Below, piece by piece: positions 1,622 to 9,761 of a DNA stretch of 25,705 nt (positions are counted from its first letter, which is position 1; the number at the start of each line of letters is the position of its first letter). The notes beneath the pieces were generated by a model, which had not been told where the DNA came from, searched no databases, and worked only from the letters and a program-made list of their open reading frames with translations. This DNA comes from a virus. The stretch spans positions 1 through 25,705 of the IMG/VR virus record IMGVR_UViG_3300025864_000047. One strand, 5' to 3'. Position numbers and translations under genes: made by a program.

Positions 1622-1986
1622 GGCGTCACCGGGTCGCCACGGTAGAGCCCCGCCGCCCGCAGGATGCGGCCTGCACGAGGCGCTAGCACCAGAGGGGCGG
1701 CGGGCATCGCCTTGACGTTGCCGATGGTCAGGTCCGATAGCGGCCCCAGCACGTCGTCCTCTTCGTCGCCGGCCAGCCAGAACTCGACCTGGGCGCAGGT
1801 GGCGTCGCGGAAGACGGCGATGTCCTCGGCCTCGGTAGGGAAGCCGTCCGTGTCGTGCTCGTAGACGGCCGTGCGCGTGAAGTCGTCAACGACCTCCCCC
1901 GCCCGGTCGATAAGGCGGGGGAGGTCGTCAGGAGTCGTGCCGCCAGCAAACGTGGCGTACTCATCGCTGGTGGCGTAGGCGGTCAT
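1618..1986 (-). CDS. Head-tail connector (adaptor) protein
   Basis: The product is 122 aa, starting at ATG 1986 with an ATGA overlap. It is largely helical: MTAYATSDEYATFAGG, then DLPRLIDRAGEVVDDFTR, a segment with AVFRDATCAQVEFWLAGDE, and a short C-terminal tail with ILRAAGLYRG. This arrangement, an N-terminal 'ta.y.t.eea...g' followed by helices with 'A...vd..tr' and 'al..A...qv..w', is typical of phage gp6/gp15-type adaptors that dock onto the portal. It is the first of the connector genes downstream of the capsid module, as expected. Confidence 0.65.
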   Translation of the reverse strand: MTAYATSDEYATFAGGTTPDDLPRLIDRAGEVVDDFTRTAVYEHDTDGFPTEAEDIAVFRDATCAQVEFWLAGDEEDDVLGPLSDLTIGNVKAMPAAPLVLAPRAGRILRAAGLYRGDPVTP

Positions 1987-2204
1987 GTCTCGATGACCTT
2001 CGTGGTGCCGGCGTCGATGTCATGTTCGATGGTCACGACCTTGCCGCCGGGCTGAGTGAACGGGTACCACTCGGTGCGCGCCGCGGCCTTCTTCTTGGAC
2101 TTGGGCGCGTTGGGAACCACGACCTCGCTGATGTCACCAAGCTTGGTGAGCATCGGCCCCTTGACTATTCCGCCGGTGGCGAACGGCTCGATCTTGTCAG
2201 TCAT
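1983..2204 (-). CDS. Small protein with tape-measure-like GGIVKGPM motif, 73 aa
   Basis: This gene starts at ATG 2204, 8 bases after the previous stop, and overlaps the adaptor start by ATGA. Its N-terminal third reads FATGGIVKGPMLTKLGD followed by SEVVVPN, close to the 'ATGGIV.GP....GE.GPE.V.P' motif seen in tape-measure proteins and other phage structural proteins. The second half has a basic patch (PKSKKKAAARTEWYPF) and an acidic end. It is far too short to be a tape measure itself. A minor head or connector component is a reasonable guess; the function is unknown. Confidence 0.55.
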   Translation of the reverse strand: MTDKIEPFATGGIVKGPMLTKLGDISEVVVPNAPKSKKKAAARTEWYPFTQPGGKVVTIEHDIDAGTTKVIET

Positions 2205-2212
2205 CGCCGCGG

Positions 2213-2509
2213 TCAGTCCTTCTCGGGCTTGGACGCGGCTGTCTCCACGCCGCCCTTGAGGCCCTTGGCATCACCGATGTCGTCGGCCTTGGGCCGCTGC
2301 GGCTCCGCGCCGGCGTGGGGCTGATAGCTCGACCCACCGATGCGGTCGCGGTAGTCCCCACGCTTGGGTCCGTCGCCGAGCGCATCCTCGGGGCCCTGGG
2401 GCTCCGACGGATCGCCGGGCAGCATCGGGACGCCCAAGTCGAGGGCATCGTCGCGGGTCGTGGTCTTCTTGGTCTTCGGCTCGGTCTCGGGCTTGGTCTT
2501 GTCATCCAT
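2213..2509 (-). CDS. Hypothetical hydrophilic structural-region protein, 98 aa
   Basis: I chose ATG 2509 because a GGAG Shine-Dalgarno lies just upstream; the frame stays open to 2671 but that part overlaps the end of the major capsid gene. The protein (MDDKTKPETEPKTKKTTTRDD...) is highly charged and proline/glycine rich, with no hydrophobic core visible, so it is probably disordered. It sits right after the major capsid gene, where head decoration or head-stabilising proteins often lie, but nothing in the sequence proves this. It ends at 2213, 8 bases before the next start. Confidence 0.55.
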   Translation of the reverse strand: MDDKTKPETEPKTKKTTTRDDALDLGVPMLPGDPSEPQGPEDALGDGPKRGDYRDRIGGSSYQPHAGAEPQRPKADDIGDAKGLKGGVETAASKPEKD

Positions 2510-2561
2510 GAGGTGCTCCTGTTCGGGAAGGGGAGAGGGCTGCCCCAGGGCGCACGTGGCG

Positions 2562-2577
2562 CACGCCCCGGGGCGTG
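2562..2577. other. GC-rich perfect palindrome after the capsid gene
   Basis: CACGCCCCGGGGCGTG is a perfect 16-base palindrome beginning 4 bases beyond the TAA of the major capsid gene. RNA from the minus strand would fold into a hairpin there. No U-tract follows, so I do not call it an intrinsic terminator; RNA stabilisation or attenuation is possible. Confidence 0.5.
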
Positions 2578-2580
2578 TGG

Positions 2581-3537
2581 TTAGGAGGCGAGGACGCCGG
2601 TGAGGCGAGCGGCGGCCTTGCCACCGAAGACGCCCAGGCCGACGAACCACTCGATCCGAGTGCGGAAACACGGCTTGACCTGCTGCTCGCCGAGGTCGCG
2701 CACGTCGAGGGTGCCGTTCTGCAGGCCGGCGACGGACTGGTCGTCGATGCCCTGGCCGAACTTGACGGCGTAGATCGAGGAGGCGATGGCGCCGGAGGTG
2801 CCCTGCGTCTCGGTCTGCGGGATGACGAGCGTGCCGTCCGCCTTGTTGCCGATGTCGAGCAGCGGGATGCCGTTGTACATCTGGATGTGGCGGCCGAAGC
2901 TGTCGACGGTCTGGTCGTAGGTGGTCAGGCGCCGCGCCGAGCTGGCGATCTTCGCCTTGACGGCGGCGTTCATGTACAGGACGCCGTTGCTGGCGTTGAT
3001 GCCGAGCACCTGAGCGATGAGGTTGTCGAGCTGGTCGAAGAACAGGTGGCGGGCGTTGTCGTCGGCGCCGAGCACGGCCAAGCCGTTGGTCGCGGCGGCG
3101 ATGACCTGAGCGCCGGTGAGGCGCTTCTTGATGCCGTCGAAGCTGTTCGCATCGCCAGCCGTGTCGCCGTTGATGAACGTGTCGTCGAACTTGTAGGCCG
3201 CGGCCTTGGCCTTCAGGTTGTTCTGCGTGGTGCGCAGGTCGGCGAGGTTGCCGCCGGTCTTGACGAGGAAGGTGTCTACGTCGGCGTCGCCGCCGAGGAT
3301 GACGATGGACTCCGTCTTCGGGTTCACGGTGCCGGTCGACTCCGCGTAGGCGGCGTTCACGGCGCGGAACTCGACGCCCGGGAGCGCCAGCTCCTCGTTG
3401 TACCTGTAGGCGTTGCCTTGGATGTCGACGAAGGGAATCCGGTCGATGACCGGGCTCTCCTTGACGAACGTCTCGACGACGCCGGGGACGATCGGGTTGT
3501 TGGTGAGCTTATTGGCTTCCGCCAGGGTCAGTGCCAT
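2581..3537 (-). CDS. Major capsid protein (HK97-fold type)
   Basis: A 318-aa product starting at ATG 3537 with a GAGGAG Shine-Dalgarno. It opens MALTLAEANKLTNNPIV and has the features of HK97-fold coat proteins: an early segment with FVDIQGNAYRYNEE, an E-loop-like region (VEFRAVNAAYAESTG), helix-rich centre, YMNAAVKAKI and a late P-domain/A-domain part with IQMYNGIPLLDIG and IYAVKFGQG. It follows the scaffold gene directly, the standard order. The product assembles the icosahedral head shell. GC-rich hairpins lie on both sides of the gene. Confidence 0.85.
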   Translation of the reverse strand: MALTLAEANKLTNNPIVPGVVETFVKESPVIDRIPFVDIQGNAYRYNEELALPGVEFRAVNAAYAESTGTVNPKTESIVILGGDADVDTFLVKTGGNLADLRTTQNNLKAKAAAYKFDDTFINGDTAGDANSFDGIKKRLTGAQVIAAATNGLAVLGADDNARHLFFDQLDNLIAQVLGINASNGVLYMNAAVKAKIASSARRLTTYDQTVDSFGRHIQMYNGIPLLDIGNKADGTLVIPQTETQGTSGAIASSIYAVKFGQGIDDQSVAGLQNGTLDVRDLGEQQVKPCFRTRIEWFVGLGVFGGKAAARLTGVLAS

Positions 3538-3562
3538 CTTGTGCTCCTCATGCTCGGCCGCC

Positions 3563-3578
3563 CCTGGCGTGCGCCAGG
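3563..3578. other. Hairpin between scaffold and major capsid genes
   Basis: CCTGGCG and CGCCAGG form a perfect 7-base-pair stem around a 2-base centre, 7 bases downstream of the scaffold stop codon. There is no U-tract. It resembles in position the palindromes after the capsid gene and before the scaffold gene. Confidence 0.45.
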
Positions 3579-3585
3579 CGTCGGC

Positions 3586-4209
3586 TTACTGGTTTGCTTG
3601 CTGCTCGTAGTAGTCGCGGGAACGCTGCTGCGGATCGTCGGACTGCTTGCCGGCGGGCGCGGCGCCGCCCACGTGGCCACCGGAGCGCGCAGGTGCGGCG
3701 AGCGCGCCTGCGGCCTTGAGGTTGGGGTTCGCGGTGAGCGCCGCCTTGATGGCCTCGCCGACCTGCGTGGCAAAGTCATCCGCCGCCGGATCGATGGCCT
3801 CCAGCGCGCGCATGAACGAGCGCGAGTCCACCAGGGACTCGGGGTCGGCGCCGAGCTTGCCGGCGGCGCGCAGGACGGCGTTCTCGACCTTCGTGGCCTT
3901 GGCCTCGAGACGGGCGGCGTCGCGCTCGTCGGCTGCCGTCTGGGCGGCCTTGACCGGGTCGTCGTCGTCCTTCAGGCTGAGCGCCTTGGCGATCGCGTCG
4001 CGCGTCGCCGTGAGCGCATCGTTGCTGGTCGTGGCCTTGGTGCGATTGGTCGCTGCTTCAGTGCGCGTCTTGCCGATGAGCTTCTGGGCCCAGTCGGGCA
4101 GGCTGGCCACGTCGTCAGGCGCGGCGGCAGCGGGGGTCTCGGGAGCGGGCGCCGGCGGGTCGACCGCGGCGACGGGCTTGGGAGTGACGACTTCTGCTAC
4201 TTCTACCAT
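3586..4209 (-). CDS. Capsid scaffolding protein
   Basis: The product is 207 aa, starting at ATG 4209 with an AGGAGG Shine-Dalgarno 8 bases upstream. It has the composition of a phage scaffold: an Ala/Pro-rich disordered N-terminus (residues 1-35), SLPDWAQKLIGKTRTEAATN, a long charged helical centre (DDDPVKAAQTAADERDAARL followed by KATKVENAVLRAAGKLG), and a polar C-terminal tail ending DYYEQQANQ. 'LPDWAQKLI..LR.EAA..R' is a signature of siphovirus scaffolds. It guides assembly of the coat protein encoded immediately downstream and is then removed. Confidence 0.8.
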   Translation of the reverse strand: MVEVAEVVTPKPVAAVDPPAPAPETPAAAAPDDVASLPDWAQKLIGKTRTEAATNRTKATTSNDALTATRDAIAKALSLKDDDDPVKAAQTAADERDAARLEAKATKVENAVLRAAGKLGADPESLVDSRSFMRALEAIDPAADDFATQVGEAIKAALTANPNLKAAGALAAPARSGGHVGGAAPAGKQSDDPQQRSRDYYEQQANQ

Positions 4210-4234
4210 GGGGGAGCCTCCTGGGCTGCCTGTG

Positions 4235-4253
4235 CCCCGACGCCAAGTCGGGG
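4235..4253. other. Hairpin in the leader of the scaffold gene
   Basis: CCCCGAC and GTCGGGG are perfect complements separated by 5 bases, in the 92-base gap between the split minor-capsid C-half and the scaffold. The same gap holds the scaffold's AGGAGG site. No U-tract is present. It may separate capsid/scaffold RNA from the upstream transcript. Confidence 0.45.
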
Positions 4254-4301
4254 ACGTGTAGGGGCAGTGTGACGGAGGCGGAAGTGCGGAGGCGCGTGCA
4301 G

Positions 4302-4628
4302 TTACAGAGCGCCGAGACGCTCGCGAACAGGCTGGCGCTTGGCCGTTGTGGATGCGACGTGGGCGCGTATCTTGGCCTGGTAGGCGCGCACCCGCACGCC
4401 CGCCGCCTGTGCCGCTACGTCGTCCATGGCGGCGGCCTGCACGCGCTTGGCGGCCCGTGTCTGACGCTCAAGGTAGCGGAGCTTCGTCGTGTCGGCGTAG
4501 CCCTGCGGGTCGGCAACGTCGCCCATGGGGCGCGTAATGCCCTCCTGGTAGGCGCTGACGCTGTGGCGACAGTTGCAGTGCATGAGGCCGGCGGCGCGGG
4601 CTTCGTCGAGGGTGGGGTAGGCGGTCAC
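4302..4628 (-). CDS. Minor capsid protein (MuF type), detached C-terminal part
   Basis: A 108-aa ORF with a GTG start at 4628 that overlaps the previous stop (GTGA). It begins MTAYPTLDEARAAGLMH and continues CNCRHSVSAYQEGITRP, RYLERQTRAAKRVQAAA and VRAYQAKIRAHVASTTAKRQ. In intact actinophage minor capsid proteins this is the segment that directly follows 'CPLCRPWEGKVLS', ending in '...AR.W...IR.H...tg..R...RE'. Here that upstream segment is encoded by the gene starting at 6312, with about 215 extra residues and a separate 58-aa gene in between. The usual GLMHPNCRH is here GLMHCNCRH. I infer that it completes the MuF fold in trans, or is a non-functional remnant. Confidence 0.75.
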   Translation of the reverse strand: MTAYPTLDEARAAGLMHCNCRHSVSAYQEGITRPMGDVADPQGYADTTKLRYLERQTRAAKRVQAAAMDDVAAQAAGVRVRAYQAKIRAHVASTTAKRQPVRERLGAL

Positions 4629-4801
4629 GGGCGCGGCTCGTACTGGATGCCGTTGTCGCCCTCGTGCGGCTGCGTGTGGTCGAAGGTGCCGTCGAGGATG
4701 TCTTCGGGGATGCCGTCGGGGAAGGCGAGGCAGACATTCTCAGTGCGGGTTTCGCGGTCAAAGTTCGCACAGTCTGCACATTGAGTGGTGACTATAGTCA
4801 C
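4625..4801 (-). CDS. 58-aa Cys protein with AFPDGIP motif
   Basis: It starts at GTG 4801, overlapping the metallopeptidase-gene stop by GTGA, and ends at 4625, overlapping the next GTG. The frame has CADCANF near residue 8, a third Cys at 24, then LAFPDGIPEDILDGTFDHTQ and GDNGIQYEP. The pattern Cys-x2-Cys...Cys-x-AFPDGIP..I..G..DH..P..GD.GI.YEP is a small family I know from phage genomes near minor head genes; its role is not established to my knowledge. Here it lies inside the insertion that splits the minor capsid gene. A role as a partner of, or immunity factor for, the preceding metallopeptidase domain is inference. Confidence 0.7.
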   Translation of the reverse strand: MTIVTTQCADCANFDRETRTENVCLAFPDGIPEDILDGTFDHTQPHEGDNGIQYEPRP

Positions 4802-6312
4802 GGCGTCAGCCCTCCGAGTTCGGCATACAAGCGCATGGCTTCGGGGCTGTACGAACGCCCGTCTATGAGGCCCACGAACGTCTCAGCCACGAACTCCAGA
4901 GGGTCAGCCGCTGCCCGACGCGATATCTCCGGACCGACGCGCTTGAGCATGGTTTCATAGCTCGTCCCGTATCGACTGAGATACAACTTCGCATACTGTT
5001 CGGGGTTCGTCTTGTCGTGAGCCGCATGGCCTAGTTCATGGATGAGTGGATGGTCGGCGCGGCCTGTAGACCAGAACCCGGATTCGTTCTGCGCAAGCGC
5101 CCGCGCCGCCGCCTCGCTCCCTCCCTTCGACCAGAATGACGCACTCGGGTTCACAATCACCCGCTTGTATGACGAGTCGTACATCGCTGGGGACAACTTC
5201 TTCAAATTCCCGGTGAATGGTGCGCTTGTGATGTCAAAACGACGCACAGAGTCGATACCTCGCGACTGTAGAAGGTCAGAAGCACCTCGCACGGTCTCCG
5301 TAAGTCCCGCTCCCCGCTTGCCAATGACGTTGACGCTCACTGTGGGCATTTCCACTGGCATCGGTGGCGCGGCCTCCACCCCCGGCCCCTCCGTCGCGAC
5401 CTGGAACGCAGCGTCCGCGTCCGGCGGCATCTCAACCGGCACGCCGCCTATCGACAGCACCTTCCCTTCCCACGGTCGGCACAGTGGGCACTCCCTCGGC
5501 GCATCCGAGACGATGACGAGGTCCAGCCCGTTAGCGGTCAGCCGATCGACGTGCCCCTGCACGGCAGCGCGCCCGCAGCCGGTGCGCATGGCCATTTCCG
5601 TGTAGGACTCCATCGACCAGCCGCGCCCGGCTGAATCGACGAACCCTGTTATGCCCTTCTGGGCGAACCTGTTGAGCGCCGCCTGCGCCGCCTGCCGCCG
5701 CGTCTGGTCGCCGAGCAGGACGCCGCTAGAGCTCTCGGCGATGACGCTACGGTAGGTGTCCATGGTCGACCTGAGGATGCCGGTGTGCGTCGCCAGCACG
5801 TTGCCCAGCGTCTCCTGCGTCAGTGCCTCGATGGCGCGCAGGCCGGCGAGGGGCTCAACGGCAGGCGCGGCTCCCATGTACGCTGGATGCTTGTCAACGA
5901 ACGCCTGCGCCTTCTCCGCCGTGTCGAATTTGTGCAGCACGCGCCCATCGGGTTCACGGATCTCCCACGGATTGCGCGGCATCGGCGACCACTGCACGGC
6001 GCTGTACTTCATCGCGGCGCTCATCTGCAGTTTCGACAAGTCGGCAACGGCAGACAGCCCACCCTGCTCGTAGGCGTCCGTGATGGCAGTGGCGACGCCG
6101 CGCGCCGCCTTCTCCTCGAGGTCAGCCAGCAGCCGCTTCGCCTGCCGCTCGTACTCCTGCATCTGCGCCAGCTTCGTCGCCGCCCACTCGGGCGCGTCCA
6201 GACCCTTACCCAGGTTCCGGGCGATGCGCGCTACCAGCGCCGCCTCGGCGTCCTGGTAGTGCGCGACAACGCCGGCGGCGAGGTGTTCGGCTTGGGCGGG
6301 GCTGACGGGCAT
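4798..6312 (-). CDS. MuF-type minor capsid protein with C-terminal HExxH metallopeptidase domain
   Basis: The product is 504 aa. ATG 6312 is chosen because it makes a TGATG overlap with the preceding small gene; the frame upstream is a shadow. Residues 1-290 match the phage minor capsid/head morphogenesis type: helical N-terminus, VDSAGRGWSMESYTEM (225-240), RTGCGRAAVQGHVDRL (243-258) and SDAPRECPLCRPWEGKVLSI (269-288). Instead of the normal continuation comes a linker (about 291-330), then a domain with HPLIHELGHAAH (HELGH at 425-429) and PLEFVAETFVGL (E477, a likely third zinc ligand). This is a zincin peptidase pattern as in MuF polymorphic toxins. The 3' part is markedly less GC-rich. The metallopeptidase could act in the injected head contents or as a toxin. 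Confidence 0.8.
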   Translation of the reverse strand: MPVSPAQAEHLAAGVVAHYQDAEAALVARIARNLGKGLDAPEWAATKLAQMQEYERQAKRLLADLEEKAARGVATAITDAYEQGGLSAVADLSKLQMSAAMKYSAVQWSPMPRNPWEIREPDGRVLHKFDTAEKAQAFVDKHPAYMGAAPAVEPLAGLRAIEALTQETLGNVLATHTGILRSTMDTYRSVIAESSSGVLLGDQTRRQAAQAALNRFAQKGITGFVDSAGRGWSMESYTEMAMRTGCGRAAVQGHVDRLTANGLDLVIVSDAPRECPLCRPWEGKVLSIGGVPVEMPPDADAAFQVATEGPGVEAAPPMPVEMPTVSVNVIGKRGAGLTETVRGASDLLQSRGIDSVRRFDITSAPFTGNLKKLSPAMYDSSYKRVIVNPSASFWSKGGSEAAARALAQNESGFWSTGRADHPLIHELGHAAHDKTNPEQYAKLYLSRYGTSYETMLKRVGPEISRRAAADPLEFVAETFVGLIDGRSYSPEAMRLYAELGGLTP

Positions 6313-6485
6313 CAGCGCCGGCCGTACCAGCCGTGCCAGAACTGCCACCAGGGGATGCGCTGCAGCCTCACAGTGATCTTGAACGACTGTGCGCCCGGGA
6401 CTCTCGGGAGGATCTCGCCGGAAGACACGTACCACCTGCAGAGCCGGCGGCGGATGTAGTAGGGCTTGAAGAGGGAGACGCCCAT
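6312..6485 (-). CDS. Small basic aromatic protein, 57 aa
   Basis: ATG 6485 overlaps the previous stop as TGATG, and the stop at 6312 overlaps the minor capsid start the same way. The protein reads MGVSLFKPYYIRRRLCRWYV, then VPGAQSFKITVRLQRIPWW and ends WHGWYGRR. It is rich in Trp, Tyr and Arg. I do not recognise it; the tight coupling on both sides, and the absence of any other use for this stretch, support that it is translated. It may be a small head-associated protein. Confidence 0.5.
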   Translation of the reverse strand: MGVSLFKPYYIRRRLCRWYVSSGEILPRVPGAQSFKITVRLQRIPWWQFWHGWYGRR

Positions 6486-6619
6486 CACTTCTTCGGGAAC
6501 GGCGGCGCCTTCTTGCCGCCAAACGCGGGCATCTTCTTCGCCGGCTGCTTCTTGCCGGCCGCCGGCTTGTTCGTCTTCAGTCGCTTGTCCTTGGGGGTGC
6601 CTTTACTGGGGAAACCCAT
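6485..6619 (-). CDS. Lysine/proline-rich small protein, 44 aa
   Basis: ATG 6619 has an AGGAGG-type Shine-Dalgarno 8 bases upstream and overlaps the previous stop as TGATG; its own stop overlaps the next ATG as TGATG. The protein (MGFPSKGTPKDKRLKTNKPA, then repeats of AGKKQPAKKMPAFGGKK) is about one third lysine with Pro-Ala spacing, resembling histone-tail or DNA-binding tails. Small lysine-rich proteins next to portal genes are common in actinophages; I know of no demonstrated function. Confidence 0.6.
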   Translation of the reverse strand: MGFPSKGTPKDKRLKTNKPAAGKKQPAKKMPAFGGKKAPPFPKK

Positions 6620-6786
6620 CAGTGTCCTCCTGCGAGTCTGTCGTCGATCTTGAATGAATGCCCGAACCACATCCGCCAGACGACCGAATGCCGCTGGACG
6701 TCTTCCCCTCCTGAGAGCACCTCCCCATACTCAGTGCGGTACTTGAGGGGAAGCAACTGCTTGAAATACCACCGGACTCTGCTCAT
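6619..6786 (-). CDS. Small portal-adjacent protein, 55 aa
   Basis: ATG 6786 overlaps the portal stop as TGATG. The 55-aa product has MSRVRWYFKQLLPLKYRTEY, a short acidic stretch (GEVLSGGEDVQRH) and VVWRMWFGHSFKIDD. The combination 'YR..Y......W.MWFG..F.id' recurs in small proteins of actinophages. Function is unknown. It is the first of three consecutive small genes between portal and minor capsid genes, all joined by TGATG. Confidence 0.6.
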   Translation of the reverse strand: MSRVRWYFKQLLPLKYRTEYGEVLSGGEDVQRHSVVWRMWFGHSFKIDDRLAGGH

Positions 6787-8429
6787 CACACGACCTCCGC
6801 TGTCACGTTGTCGGGTTGTCCTTGACCGTTGCCGCCGAACGGCGGCGGCGCCCCGATGTCGGGGACGCTCATTCCGCCCTCGGCAATCACCAGCGCCACC
6901 TCTGCCTCGATGGCGGCTTCGTCCCAGTCCGGGTGAATCATCGCCACCTTGGTCTTCACCGACACCGCCACCGCGCGATTCAGAGTCTCGGCGGTGCGCG
7001 CCAGGACCTCGGGGTCGGGCTGCGACACGTCCGCCCACTCGACCTCGACCGCGCCCTTGGCGCCGGTCTTGAAGATCTGCGCGTCGAGCTCCAGCCACGT
7101 CGTCAGTAGCGGCTCCAGCGCCTGGCTCCAGTAGCGCGTCTTCTTGTCCCTCGTGCGGGCACTCTTGCGCTCACGGGAGACGACTTCCGTAGCCGTCGTT
7201 ACGCCTTCGTTGCCCTTGCCGAATGTGCTAGGGCTGTAGCCGGCGGCGTCGAGGATCTGGTCAACGAGCGCGTCGGCGGTCTGCTGGTGATCGGCGCAGC
7301 GAATGTCAAACTGCTGCGGCGTGATCGCCTGCGGCGTCTCCTTCGCCTGCATGATGTTCAGGCCGACGAAGATTTCCTGGTCAACGTCGAAGGTCGCGCC
7401 CCGCCCCTTGCCGAGGTTCTGCAGCATGTCCTCAGGCACCAGCAGCCGCGCCTTGGCGAGCCGCACGTCACGCATCCACGAGGTGTACGTCTCGTCGAGC
7501 GCGTCCATCATCGGCTCACAGCCGTCATAGTCGCTGCGTCCGAGACGGTTCAGCTCCGGCACCTTGCGCCACCTGCGCTGCGGGCGCATGTTCGCCGCGT
7601 AGGCGGCGGTGATGTCCTCGACGCCGGTCAGGATCGCGCCCTCTTCGTTGACGAGGTCGACATACGGCTCTGTGCTCGGGTGGTCGCCCAGTGCCTCGAC
7701 GTGGCCCAAGGTCTTCGCGTCGCCGCGGTACAGGCCGTGTAGAATCACGCCCGGCTCATGCCGTTCGAGATGCCTGATCACCTCCTGGTTGCCGCTGCCT
7801 TCCGTGTATTCCGTGAAGAAGGTCACGGCCTCGAGCCGTCCCCAGCGCCACTCGCCAATTGCGGCGTCGGCGCCCACGGCGTCAATCATCACGTGCTCGG
7901 CAACGTCGGTATCCCAGACGAGGCGCAGCCAGGCACCGCCCAGCGCCGCGGCGATCTCCGCCGCTTCGATCATGTCGGCGTGGAAGTCGCCGCAGTTGAG
8001 AATGTCGTCGATGCGCTTCTCCGTCGGCGTTGGCGTGTGCGTCACCGTCACTCCCTCCACCTTCTTCGGCTTCGGTGGAGCGTCCGGCCAAACGAACTGC
8101 GGCGGCTCGGAGAAGAGCAGGTCGCTTGAGGCGGTGGCGATATCGGCGGCGAGCGGCACGTGAAGGTGCTGCTTACGCTGGCCGCCGACTGACGGGCGGC
8201 TCCAGAAAAAGCGCGCCACGCGGTTGACCACGCCGCCTTGCTGGAGGTTGCCCGCCCTGCCGTTCTCGTAGCTGAAGGAACTGTTGGCGGCGACGCCGCT
8301 CTCGGCCCAGGCGTAGGCGGCCGCGAGGCCTTCGGGGTCGCCGATAAGCCAGGCGCTCCACAGCGATTGCTGCGCCAGTGCTACGCCGTGGGGATACGGC
8401 GGCCACGGGCCGCCTTGGGGCAGGCTCAT
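6786..8429 (-). CDS. Portal protein
   Basis: A 547-aa protein starting at ATG 8429 behind a GGAGAGG Shine-Dalgarno. It has the character of SPP1 gp6-type portals: an N-terminal region with RVARFFWSRP and LHVPLAADIATASSDLLFSE (residues about 70-107), AAALGGAWLRLVWD, IGEWRWGRLEAVTFFTEY, then DETYTSWMRDVRLAKARLLV and the helical C-terminal part with GYSPSTFGKGNEGVTTATEV and SARTRDKKTRYWSQALEPLL. The portal is the dodecameric DNA-entry vertex. Length and place after the large terminase are as expected. Confidence 0.88.
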   Translation of the reverse strand: MSLPQGGPWPPYPHGVALAQQSLWSAWLIGDPEGLAAAYAWAESGVAANSSFSYENGRAGNLQQGGVVNRVARFFWSRPSVGGQRKQHLHVPLAADIATASSDLLFSEPPQFVWPDAPPKPKKVEGVTVTHTPTPTEKRIDDILNCGDFHADMIEAAEIAAALGGAWLRLVWDTDVAEHVMIDAVGADAAIGEWRWGRLEAVTFFTEYTEGSGNQEVIRHLERHEPGVILHGLYRGDAKTLGHVEALGDHPSTEPYVDLVNEEGAILTGVEDITAAYAANMRPQRRWRKVPELNRLGRSDYDGCEPMMDALDETYTSWMRDVRLAKARLLVPEDMLQNLGKGRGATFDVDQEIFVGLNIMQAKETPQAITPQQFDIRCADHQQTADALVDQILDAAGYSPSTFGKGNEGVTTATEVVSRERKSARTRDKKTRYWSQALEPLLTTWLELDAQIFKTGAKGAVEVEWADVSQPDPEVLARTAETLNRAVAVSVKTKVAMIHPDWDEAAIEAEVALVIAEGGMSVPDIGAPPPFGGNGQGQPDNVTAEVV

Positions 8430-8454
8430 GGCCTCTCCTTTGCATTGCGGACAC

Positions 8455-8520
8455 TCAACGGAACGCCTTGACGACGAGGATGATGATGGCGACGCAGACG
8501 ATGAACCAGAGGACGGTCAC
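8455..8520 (-). CDS. 21-aa single membrane-segment microprotein
   Basis: GTG 8520 overlaps the stop of the large terminase gene as GTGA and the frame ends with TGA at 8455, leaving 25 bases with the portal's ribosome site. The product, (M)TVLWFIVCVAIIILVVKAF plus a final Arg, is almost entirely one hydrophobic helix followed by a Lys/Arg anchor. The stretch between terL and portal would otherwise be empty in a genome where genes overlap throughout. Expression is inferred only from the GTGA coupling and the clean membrane-helix profile. Confidence 0.5.
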   Translation of the reverse strand: MTVLWFIVCVAIIILVVKAFR

Positions 8521-9761
8521 GCTGCCTCCTCAATCTCGATGGGCATGGTCAGAGGCACCTCGTGCCTCCATCTGCTCTGCGTGGTCACGACGCCGTAGCG
8601 CAGCGCGTCGCACCAGTGGTCGTTCTGCTTGACCGGCGCGTCCTGCCCCTTGGCGGTCGCCTTCGGGTCCCATGCATAGGACGGCAGCTCCGTGAGCAGG
8701 TGCGTGCAGGCCGACGAGACGACGAGCCGGCCAACGGCCAGCAGCGAGGCGACCGTGCGGATGCCGTCGATGACGGCGTTATCGGCAAGAACGACGCCGG
8801 GCACGCCGTCCGCCCAGAGCTGCTTGTGGAAGCTCGCGGCGGACGGGTCGACGATGACGCGCTCCGGCTGGCGCGGCGTGATCCACTTGCGGTAGTCGAC
8901 GGACAAGCCAGCGTCGGTCAGCGAGGGCGGTGCCCACTCGTCTACCACCACGAGCCGGGCGTGCTCCTCAGCACTGATGCCGATGAGTAGGCCGGCGGTT
9001 GGCGCTGTGGTCCCGTAGTCAATTCCGACTGCCAGCAGGCGCGATACAGGAGGGAAGTAGTAGTCGGGGCGGACCACGTGCTGCTCCCCCCACATCTCGT
9101 AGACCGCGCCCTCGGCGACGCACCACTCGCCGTCAATCATGCGCCGTGCCCACAGCCCCGTGATCTCGCGGCGCAGGTTCTCGACGAACGACGTCGGCAG
9201 GTAGGGGTTGTCAGGAAGACGGAACTGGAAGCGTGCCAGGGACAGCTCCTCGGCGCGCTGCAGGTACTTCACGTTGAGCCAGTGCATCGGGCTGTCAGGG
9301 TTCGTGGTCGCCAGCAGGCGCGCCCCCTCAAGCGAGAGGCGGGAGAGCAGCATCGTGAAGAAGGATTCCGGCACGGTGCTCAGCTCGTCGACGTAGGCGC
9401 CGATCAGCGTCAGGCCGCGTATCTTCTCCTCGGCGCGTTCGTCGTTCGCGCCGACCAGGTACACCCGGCGTGGCCCACGCGGTCCCGGCATCCAAAGCTC
9501 GCCGCTACCGCCCACGTAGCGGCAACGCTTGCTGCCGAGAATCTCGATGAGCGGGTCGACGATGTTTCGCTTCAGGGTGCGCTCCGTCTTCCCCGCCATG
9601 AGCAGATTGCCGTCCGAGGCGTGGCGGCAGAAGTCGATCCAAGCCACGTCGGCGCCTACGCTCTTGCCGGACCTGACGGAGCCGTCGGCTATCGTCATCC
9701 GGTGGGTCTTTGTGGCGTCCCAGACGGATTGCTGCTTTGAGGTAAGCGATGCGAGGTTCAT
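8517..9761 (-). CDS. Terminase large subunit
   Basis: The product is 414 aa. The start ATG 9761 overlaps the small-subunit stop as ATGA; the open frame further upstream is a shadow of that gene. Near the N-terminus are SKQQSVWDATKTHRMTIADG and the Walker A-like GSVRSGKS, then LTLIGAYVDELST as Walker B, and LATTNPDSPMHWL as the coupling motif. The nuclease half carries AVGIDYGTTAPTAGLLIG, RVIVDPSAASF and DALRYG, giving the acidic residues of the RNase-H-like fold. It cuts and pumps phage DNA into the procapsid through the portal. Confidence 0.92.
   Translation of the reverse strand: MNLASLTSKQQSVWDATKTHRMTIADGSVRSGKSVGADVAWIDFCRHASDGNLLMAGKTERTLKRNIVDPLIEILGSKRCRYVGGSGELWMPGPRGPRRVYLVGANDERAEEKIRGLTLIGAYVDELSTVPESFFTMLLSRLSLEGARLLATTNPDSPMHWLNVKYLQRAEELSLARFQFRLPDNPYLPTSFVENLRREITGLWARRMIDGEWCVAEGAVYEMWGEQHVVRPDYYFPPVSRLLAVGIDYGTTAPTAGLLIGISAEEHARLVVVDEWAPPSLTDAGLSVDYRKWITPRQPERVIVDPSAASFHKQLWADGVPGVVLADNAVIDGIRTVASLLAVGRLVVSSACTHLLTELPSYAWDPKATAKGQDAPVKQNDHWCDALRYGVVTTQSRWRHEVPLTMPIEIEEAA

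Follow-up and report, generated by a model that had tools for sequence, protein, structure and literature searches.

MuF head proteins of temperate phages carry polymorphic toxins, and 20% of putative MuF toxins have a metallopeptidase domain (Jamet et al. 2017, PMC5576092). Zincins on phage head proteins have also been described among polyvalent and virion proteins (Iyer et al. 2017, PMC5512222). C-terminal cargo on MuF proteins, metallopeptidases included, is already known, and the initial annotation of the present locus had likewise described C-terminal toxin domains as known; what it proposed in addition was a split in the middle of the fold with a coupled distal gene. We assessed such a split in a metagenomic virus record of 25,705 bases, referred to here over its whole length as the window. 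A MuF protein split mid-fold with its distal part as a coupled gene was not found in the searchable literature, most subscription journals being outside the search.

Two halves of a MuF protein in separate genes

Genes on the minus strand of the window follow the order portal, MuF, scaffold position and major head protein, so that the Phage_min_cap2 / MuF gene sits between the portal gene and the scaffold/major head protein genes (Table 1). Three consecutive minus-strand genes encode proteins of 504 (6312-4798), 58 (4801-4625) and 108 aa (4628-4302). The 504-aa chain is a minor head protein (Pfam Phage_min_cap2, MuF-like) as far as CPLCRPWEGKVLSIG, followed by ~215 residues of linker and zincin-like domain. 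All elements named in the initial annotation were present, namely the 504-aa gene with CPLCRPWEGKVLSI at residues 275-288, HELGH at 425-429 and E477, and, at the places it had given, the 58-aa Cys gene and the 108-aa distal ORF. Its proposal that the MuF gene is split, with the distal segment as a separate ORF, was borne out by PF06152 (Phage_min_cap2), which matched both halves in order (proximal residues 1-291 and the 108-aa protein), the best stretches covering profile positions 115-247 and 266-366, respectively. In tblastn searches, both halves fell inside single genes of actinophages, e.g. SV1, GMA1 and TinyDot.

Table 1 Features of the split MuF locus and its neighbours in the window
Feature	Position	Strand	Evidence
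MuF / Phage_min_cap2 proximal part, residues 1-288 of 504-aa gene, ATG at 6312	5449..6312	(-)	PF06152 E 1.7e-41; phrog_12049, phrog_581; alignment with relatives
CPLC, residues 275-278, first half of conserved CxxC...HxxC site	5479..5490	(-)	equivalent Cys invariant in 57 intact proteins
Linker (GGVPVEMPPDADAAFQVATEGP...) common to three split lineages	5368..5448	(-)	alignments; linker scan matched these lineages only
Zincin-like cargo domain, residues 316-504	4801..5367	(-)	profile match to MuF-linked zincins 95.6%, control 0.1%; plain profile search E 0.017; GC 0.596
HELGH, residues 425-429	5026..5040	(-)	sequence
E477 in EFVAET, candidate third metal ligand (motif also has E473)	4882..4884	(-)	aligned to conserved E..AE of linked zincins
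GGAGGG, ribosome-binding-like site, 8 nt before GTG of Cys gene	4810..4815	(-)	sequence
GTGA overlap, 504-aa gene stop / Cys gene start	4798..4801	(-)	sequence
58-aa Cys protein gene, phrog_33375 family, zincin-cargo companion	4625..4801	(-)	phrog_33375 E 3.4e-13; zincin-bearing gene upstream in 15/16 loci
GTGA overlap, Cys gene stop / distal MuF gene start	4625..4628	(-)	sequence
MuF / Phage_min_cap2 distal part, separate 108-aa gene	4302..4628	(-)	PF06152 266-366 E 6e-14; dN/dS 0.067 vs L001
HCNC, residues 17-20 of 108-aa protein, second half of CxxC...HxxC site	4569..4580	(-)	His and Cys invariant in two alignments
Portal protein gene (context)	6786..8429	(-)	phrog_533 E 1.4e-95
Gene in scaffold position (context)	3586..4209	(-)	phrog_8952, function unknown, E 8.6e-33; scaffold role inferred from position
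Major head protein gene (context)	2581..3537	(-)	phrog_212 E 2.2e-84

The MuF of the window is not a single polypeptide: its first gene ends in a stop, and the second lies in a different frame beyond an intervening gene. The zincin-like domain is C-terminal on its own chain, but the MuF domain ahead of it is incomplete by its PF06152 match. Read-through of the first stop was rejected, the next in-frame codons being CTA TAG, with TAG two codons on, and there was no clear ribosome-binding site ahead of the start of the distal gene in the window sequence.

The break also divides a conserved set of residues over the two chains, the proximal chain holding CxxC and the distal chain HxNC of what is probably a zinc site. 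These four residues were invariant in 57 intact proteins and retained in the split ones. A model of the protein from the closest intact relative, contig L004 (mean pLDDT 83, pTM 0.80), maps the break to a loop that follows a strand (251-253) and precedes a helix (264-269), where it parts CxxC (241, 244) from HxxC (274, 277). Comparison of this intact model with the PDB using Foldseek returned nothing significant, and a BFVD search matched it to minor capsid proteins along almost its entire length. A second variable loop was seen in the proximal part, at about 5861-6040 (-) of the window, where DNA similarity to L001, L003 and L004 is broken. The window and L001 have a much longer sequence here than do L003, L013 or L006, and the matching loop of the L004 model was predicted with low confidence.

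Intact relatives

Scanning viral and bacterial contigs for the distal part turned up 162 loci in which the two parts share a frame, 134 of them distinct in sequence, and CxxC-to-HxxC spacing was 33-65 residues where the motifs could be measured automatically. All 13 PF06152 genes were also unsplit in an independent sample of 395 genomes, which represents one bacterial class. The long stretches of the gene that match L004 had 84.6% and 88.5% DNA identity, identity from the distal part onwards was 89.7%, and the inserted stretch lies at about 5452-4620 of the window, some 830 bases. The initial annotation would have been abandoned had there been no intact single-gene relative, or had the 108-aa ORF failed to align with intact homologues; intact relatives exist, L004 being the closest, and the ORF aligns to their C-terminal part with 45-89% identity.

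Two other loci were considered as further split cases, and neither was clear. In L098 (2094-3318), the proximal and distal MuF parts are in different frames without an insert, through a frameshift, sequencing error or decay. In L120 (about 2990-3315), from a Thermoleophilia MAG, a lone distal MuF part with a GTG start (VTDYPTLEEARAAGLFHCNCRHS...) occurs shortly after a terminase fragment. The proximal part is absent from that stretch, and the gene is either a remnant or another stand-alone form.

Zincin-like cargo and a small Cys protein

The insert of the window contains HELGH and, downstream, the glutamates of EFVAE. Pfam and NCBIfam searches gave no name for it, and AlphaFold2 modelled the 504-aa chain too poorly for fold assignment (mean pLDDT 44.8). 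When aligned with the insert of L003 and compared as a profile with 13 zincin-bearing sequences, which were those adjoining Cys genes elsewhere, it matched with a probability of 95.6% (pairwise E 1.1e-8), versus 0.1% for an unrelated control. Among 18,708 ORFs searched with a plain profile, E-values were 4.9e-7 for L003, 0.017 for the window and 0.073 for L001, with the first ORF not bearing a zincin ranking below these three at 0.25. The MuF-linked zincin family has sequence similarity to M34-type lethal factor (E about 1e-8) and Pro-Pro endopeptidases, matching structures of the latter weakly. By motif and profile, the insert appears to be a zincin-like, distant member of this family.

GC content of all three cargoes found in split genes was below that of their carriers. 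The counts first reported for the window were exact (31/60 at 4981, 5161 and 5221; 43/60 at 6061), and 60-base blocks over 2581-9700 had a mean GC count of 40.1 (s.d. 3.6), with 5 of the 119 at or below 31. The description of a lower-GC HExxH cargo that interrupts a capsid-associated fold mid-domain, with the distal half kept as a coupled cistron, was upheld.

We then examined 16 loci (L020-L035) picked solely by similarity to the 58-aa Cys protein, near-duplicates included (L029/L030 and L031/L032). The gene directly upstream of the Cys gene ended in an HExxH domain in all but one of them (15/16); in the exception, L020, the upstream domain appeared ART-like by eye. Among the intact relatives, 43 had C-terminal extensions of 120 residues or more, and none of these had an HExxH...E domain or a Cys gene. 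From this difference we conclude that the zincin and the Cys gene form a two-gene cargo unit, usually located after the carrier and here inside it. The inserted part had been described as a zincin plus a separate Cys ORF; the zincin signature stands, and the pairing beside many other zincin-bearing phage genes places the Cys ORF with the cargo. Candidate roles for the phrog_33375 Cys protein are to inhibit head-carried zincins, to confer immunity to them or to act as their chaperone.

In L022 (3600-4660), a single zincin-bearing MuF gene is followed by five successive stretches that resemble the 58-aa Cys protein. In L026, a portal-like gene (1782-3881) and a MuF-like gene (4081-5664) each end in an HExxH domain, and the Cys gene is located after the portal-like gene, the first of the two.

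History of the split

Three lineages, all from metagenomic records, constitute the split set: the window, L001/L002 and L003. The break is at one position in all three, each running from CPLCRPWEGKVLSIG into a common linker (VPVEMP..D.AFQV..E.P) after which the sequences diverge, and a scan with the inserts and the shared linker detected no further split lineage. Borders of the divergent stretch are sharp at the DNA level, with similarity between the window and L001 ending at 5372 and restarting at 4735, and that between the window and L003 ending at 5388 and restarting at 4638. Different HExxH domains follow the common linker, such that the cargo is exchangeable on a constant carrier.

Split sequences clustered together, though not strongly (support 90/74), and intact L004 and L013 fell outside this cluster, suggesting that the unsplit state is most simply ancestral. 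On either side of the insert, the split genomes differ pairwise by a dS of about 0.25-0.74, and the break itself is thus not very recent. Because break and linker are common while the HExxH domains differ, the history looks like one older split with later cargo exchange. The initial annotation had proposed a recent cargo insertion; cargo within a capsid-associated fold was supported, but a single recent event does not agree with three lineages that share break and linker at these dS values, and what looks recent is the exchange of cargo at sharp borders.

The Cys gene is absent from L003, which has the same CCCGTGACC junction as the others, and we infer from the junction that L003 formerly had the gene. 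In L003 (2926-3351), the distal MuF chain is also extended at its C-terminus, by about 140 residues that had no database match, and extra domains thus occur on both chains in this lineage.

Proposed mechanism and alternative explanations

The best explanation overall, which we consider reasonably probable, is that a cassette moved into a loop of the carrier, the distal half was rescued by coupling and the halves reassemble in trans. A head-carried zincin cassette (zincin domain and small Cys gene), of the kind located elsewhere at the 3' end of muF-like genes, would have entered the loop that separates CxxC from HxNC, such that the zincin now forms and closes the C-terminus of the proximal chain. 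The distal 108-aa chain would be made by termination-reinitiation, its GTG start overlapping the Cys gene stop. The two chains may reassemble around the shared Cys2-His-Cys site, which would bind zinc, and a small beta sheet; the particle would then keep a complete MuF carrying the zincin, which may enter the host cell with the DNA and act there as an enzymatic effector. Cargo appears to have been exchanged at the break site, with the linker and distal gene left in place. Conserved Cys and His residues and purifying selection have been retained, which makes two-chain assembly plausible, and packaging and delivery with the DNA are suggested by analogy with published MuF work (PMC5576092, PMC5512222).

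Interruption of a single-chain fold mid-domain, when 134 relatives are unsplit, could also mean that the cargo inactivated MuF and that the distal ORF is a decaying remnant. However, the distal gene is under purifying selection between two split genomes (window vs. L001, dN 0.024, dS 0.353, dN/dS 0.067), which led us to reject a pseudogene, conserved residues are retained, and all three split lineages keep the distal gene with its start codon at the same place, leaving a broken gene very unlikely. We also regard it as unlikely that the halves work apart, with the proximal part and zincin as a virion-carried effector that has no need of the distal chain, and the latter with its own head role and no MuF fold. 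Retention of the Cys/Cys/His/Cys set on both chains, expected only if the chains meet or each is constrained otherwise, argues against this, although portal or scaffold could be bound by either part on its own, and two long helices make up most of the distal part in the L004 model. A metallopeptidase that works within the phage, for head maturation or self-cleavage, and is not a delivered effector, is fairly unlikely. It has been proposed that zincins within large phage proteins process the polypeptide that carries them (PMC5512222), and database records give several homologues the label 'capsid maturation protease', but intact L004, a close relative, lacks such a domain, indicating that maturation does not need one, and cargoes differ between close relatives.

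Location within an otherwise conserved coding sequence would also fit an intron, intein or excisable DNA element removed before assembly. The insert had no Rfam match and no useful flanking repeats, stops and frame changes exclude an in-frame intein, and a nuclease or recombinase was not recognised in it, making removal extremely unlikely. An assembly artefact or chimera, which has to be considered for a metagenomic virus record, is scarcely credible and is practically ruled out by independent records, as the same break occurs under other sample ids (L001, L002 and L003) with colinear flanking genes.

Returning to the cassette inserted into the carrier loop, we see an even chance that the MuF fold is permanently split across the Cys/His (probable zinc) site into two translationally coupled chains, with the break as an exchange site for zincin effectors and their dedicated Cys companion. 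If so, effector cargo on phage head proteins would not be limited to the tail end of the carrier gene, and a cassette with its own stop codon would be tolerated mid-fold provided that a coupled gene rescues the distal part. The locus would provide a natural two-part carrier for studying how MuF proteins are built and loaded, and it flags the small Cys proteins of the uncharacterised phrog_33375 family as partners of head-carried zincins, which they might inhibit or chaperone.

Comparison with known systems

The window resembles the MuF polymorphic toxins (PMC5576092) in combining a MuF head protein with an exchangeable effector-like domain, but there the cargo follows a complete MuF domain, whereas here it breaks the fold and leaves the distal part as a separate gene. 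With the actinophage Phage_min_cap2 proteins (SV1, GMA1, TinyDot and contig L004) it shares the family over both halves, the gene order and CxxC...HxxC; those proteins are one chain, with 33-65 residues between the motifs where measured, in contrast to the two chains of the window. HExxH with a downstream E..AE on a phage head protein is common to the window and the zincins of polyvalent and virion proteins (PMC5512222), from which the window differs in that its carrier is split by the cargo, a 58-aa Cys gene is paired with it and the domain appears to be a distant member. The best match of the insert among phage records was likewise on a MuF gene, the MuF-like protein of Halorubrum phage Hardycor1 (E 3e-3), in which the domain is near the C-terminus of one unsplit gene, while the carrier in the window is split.
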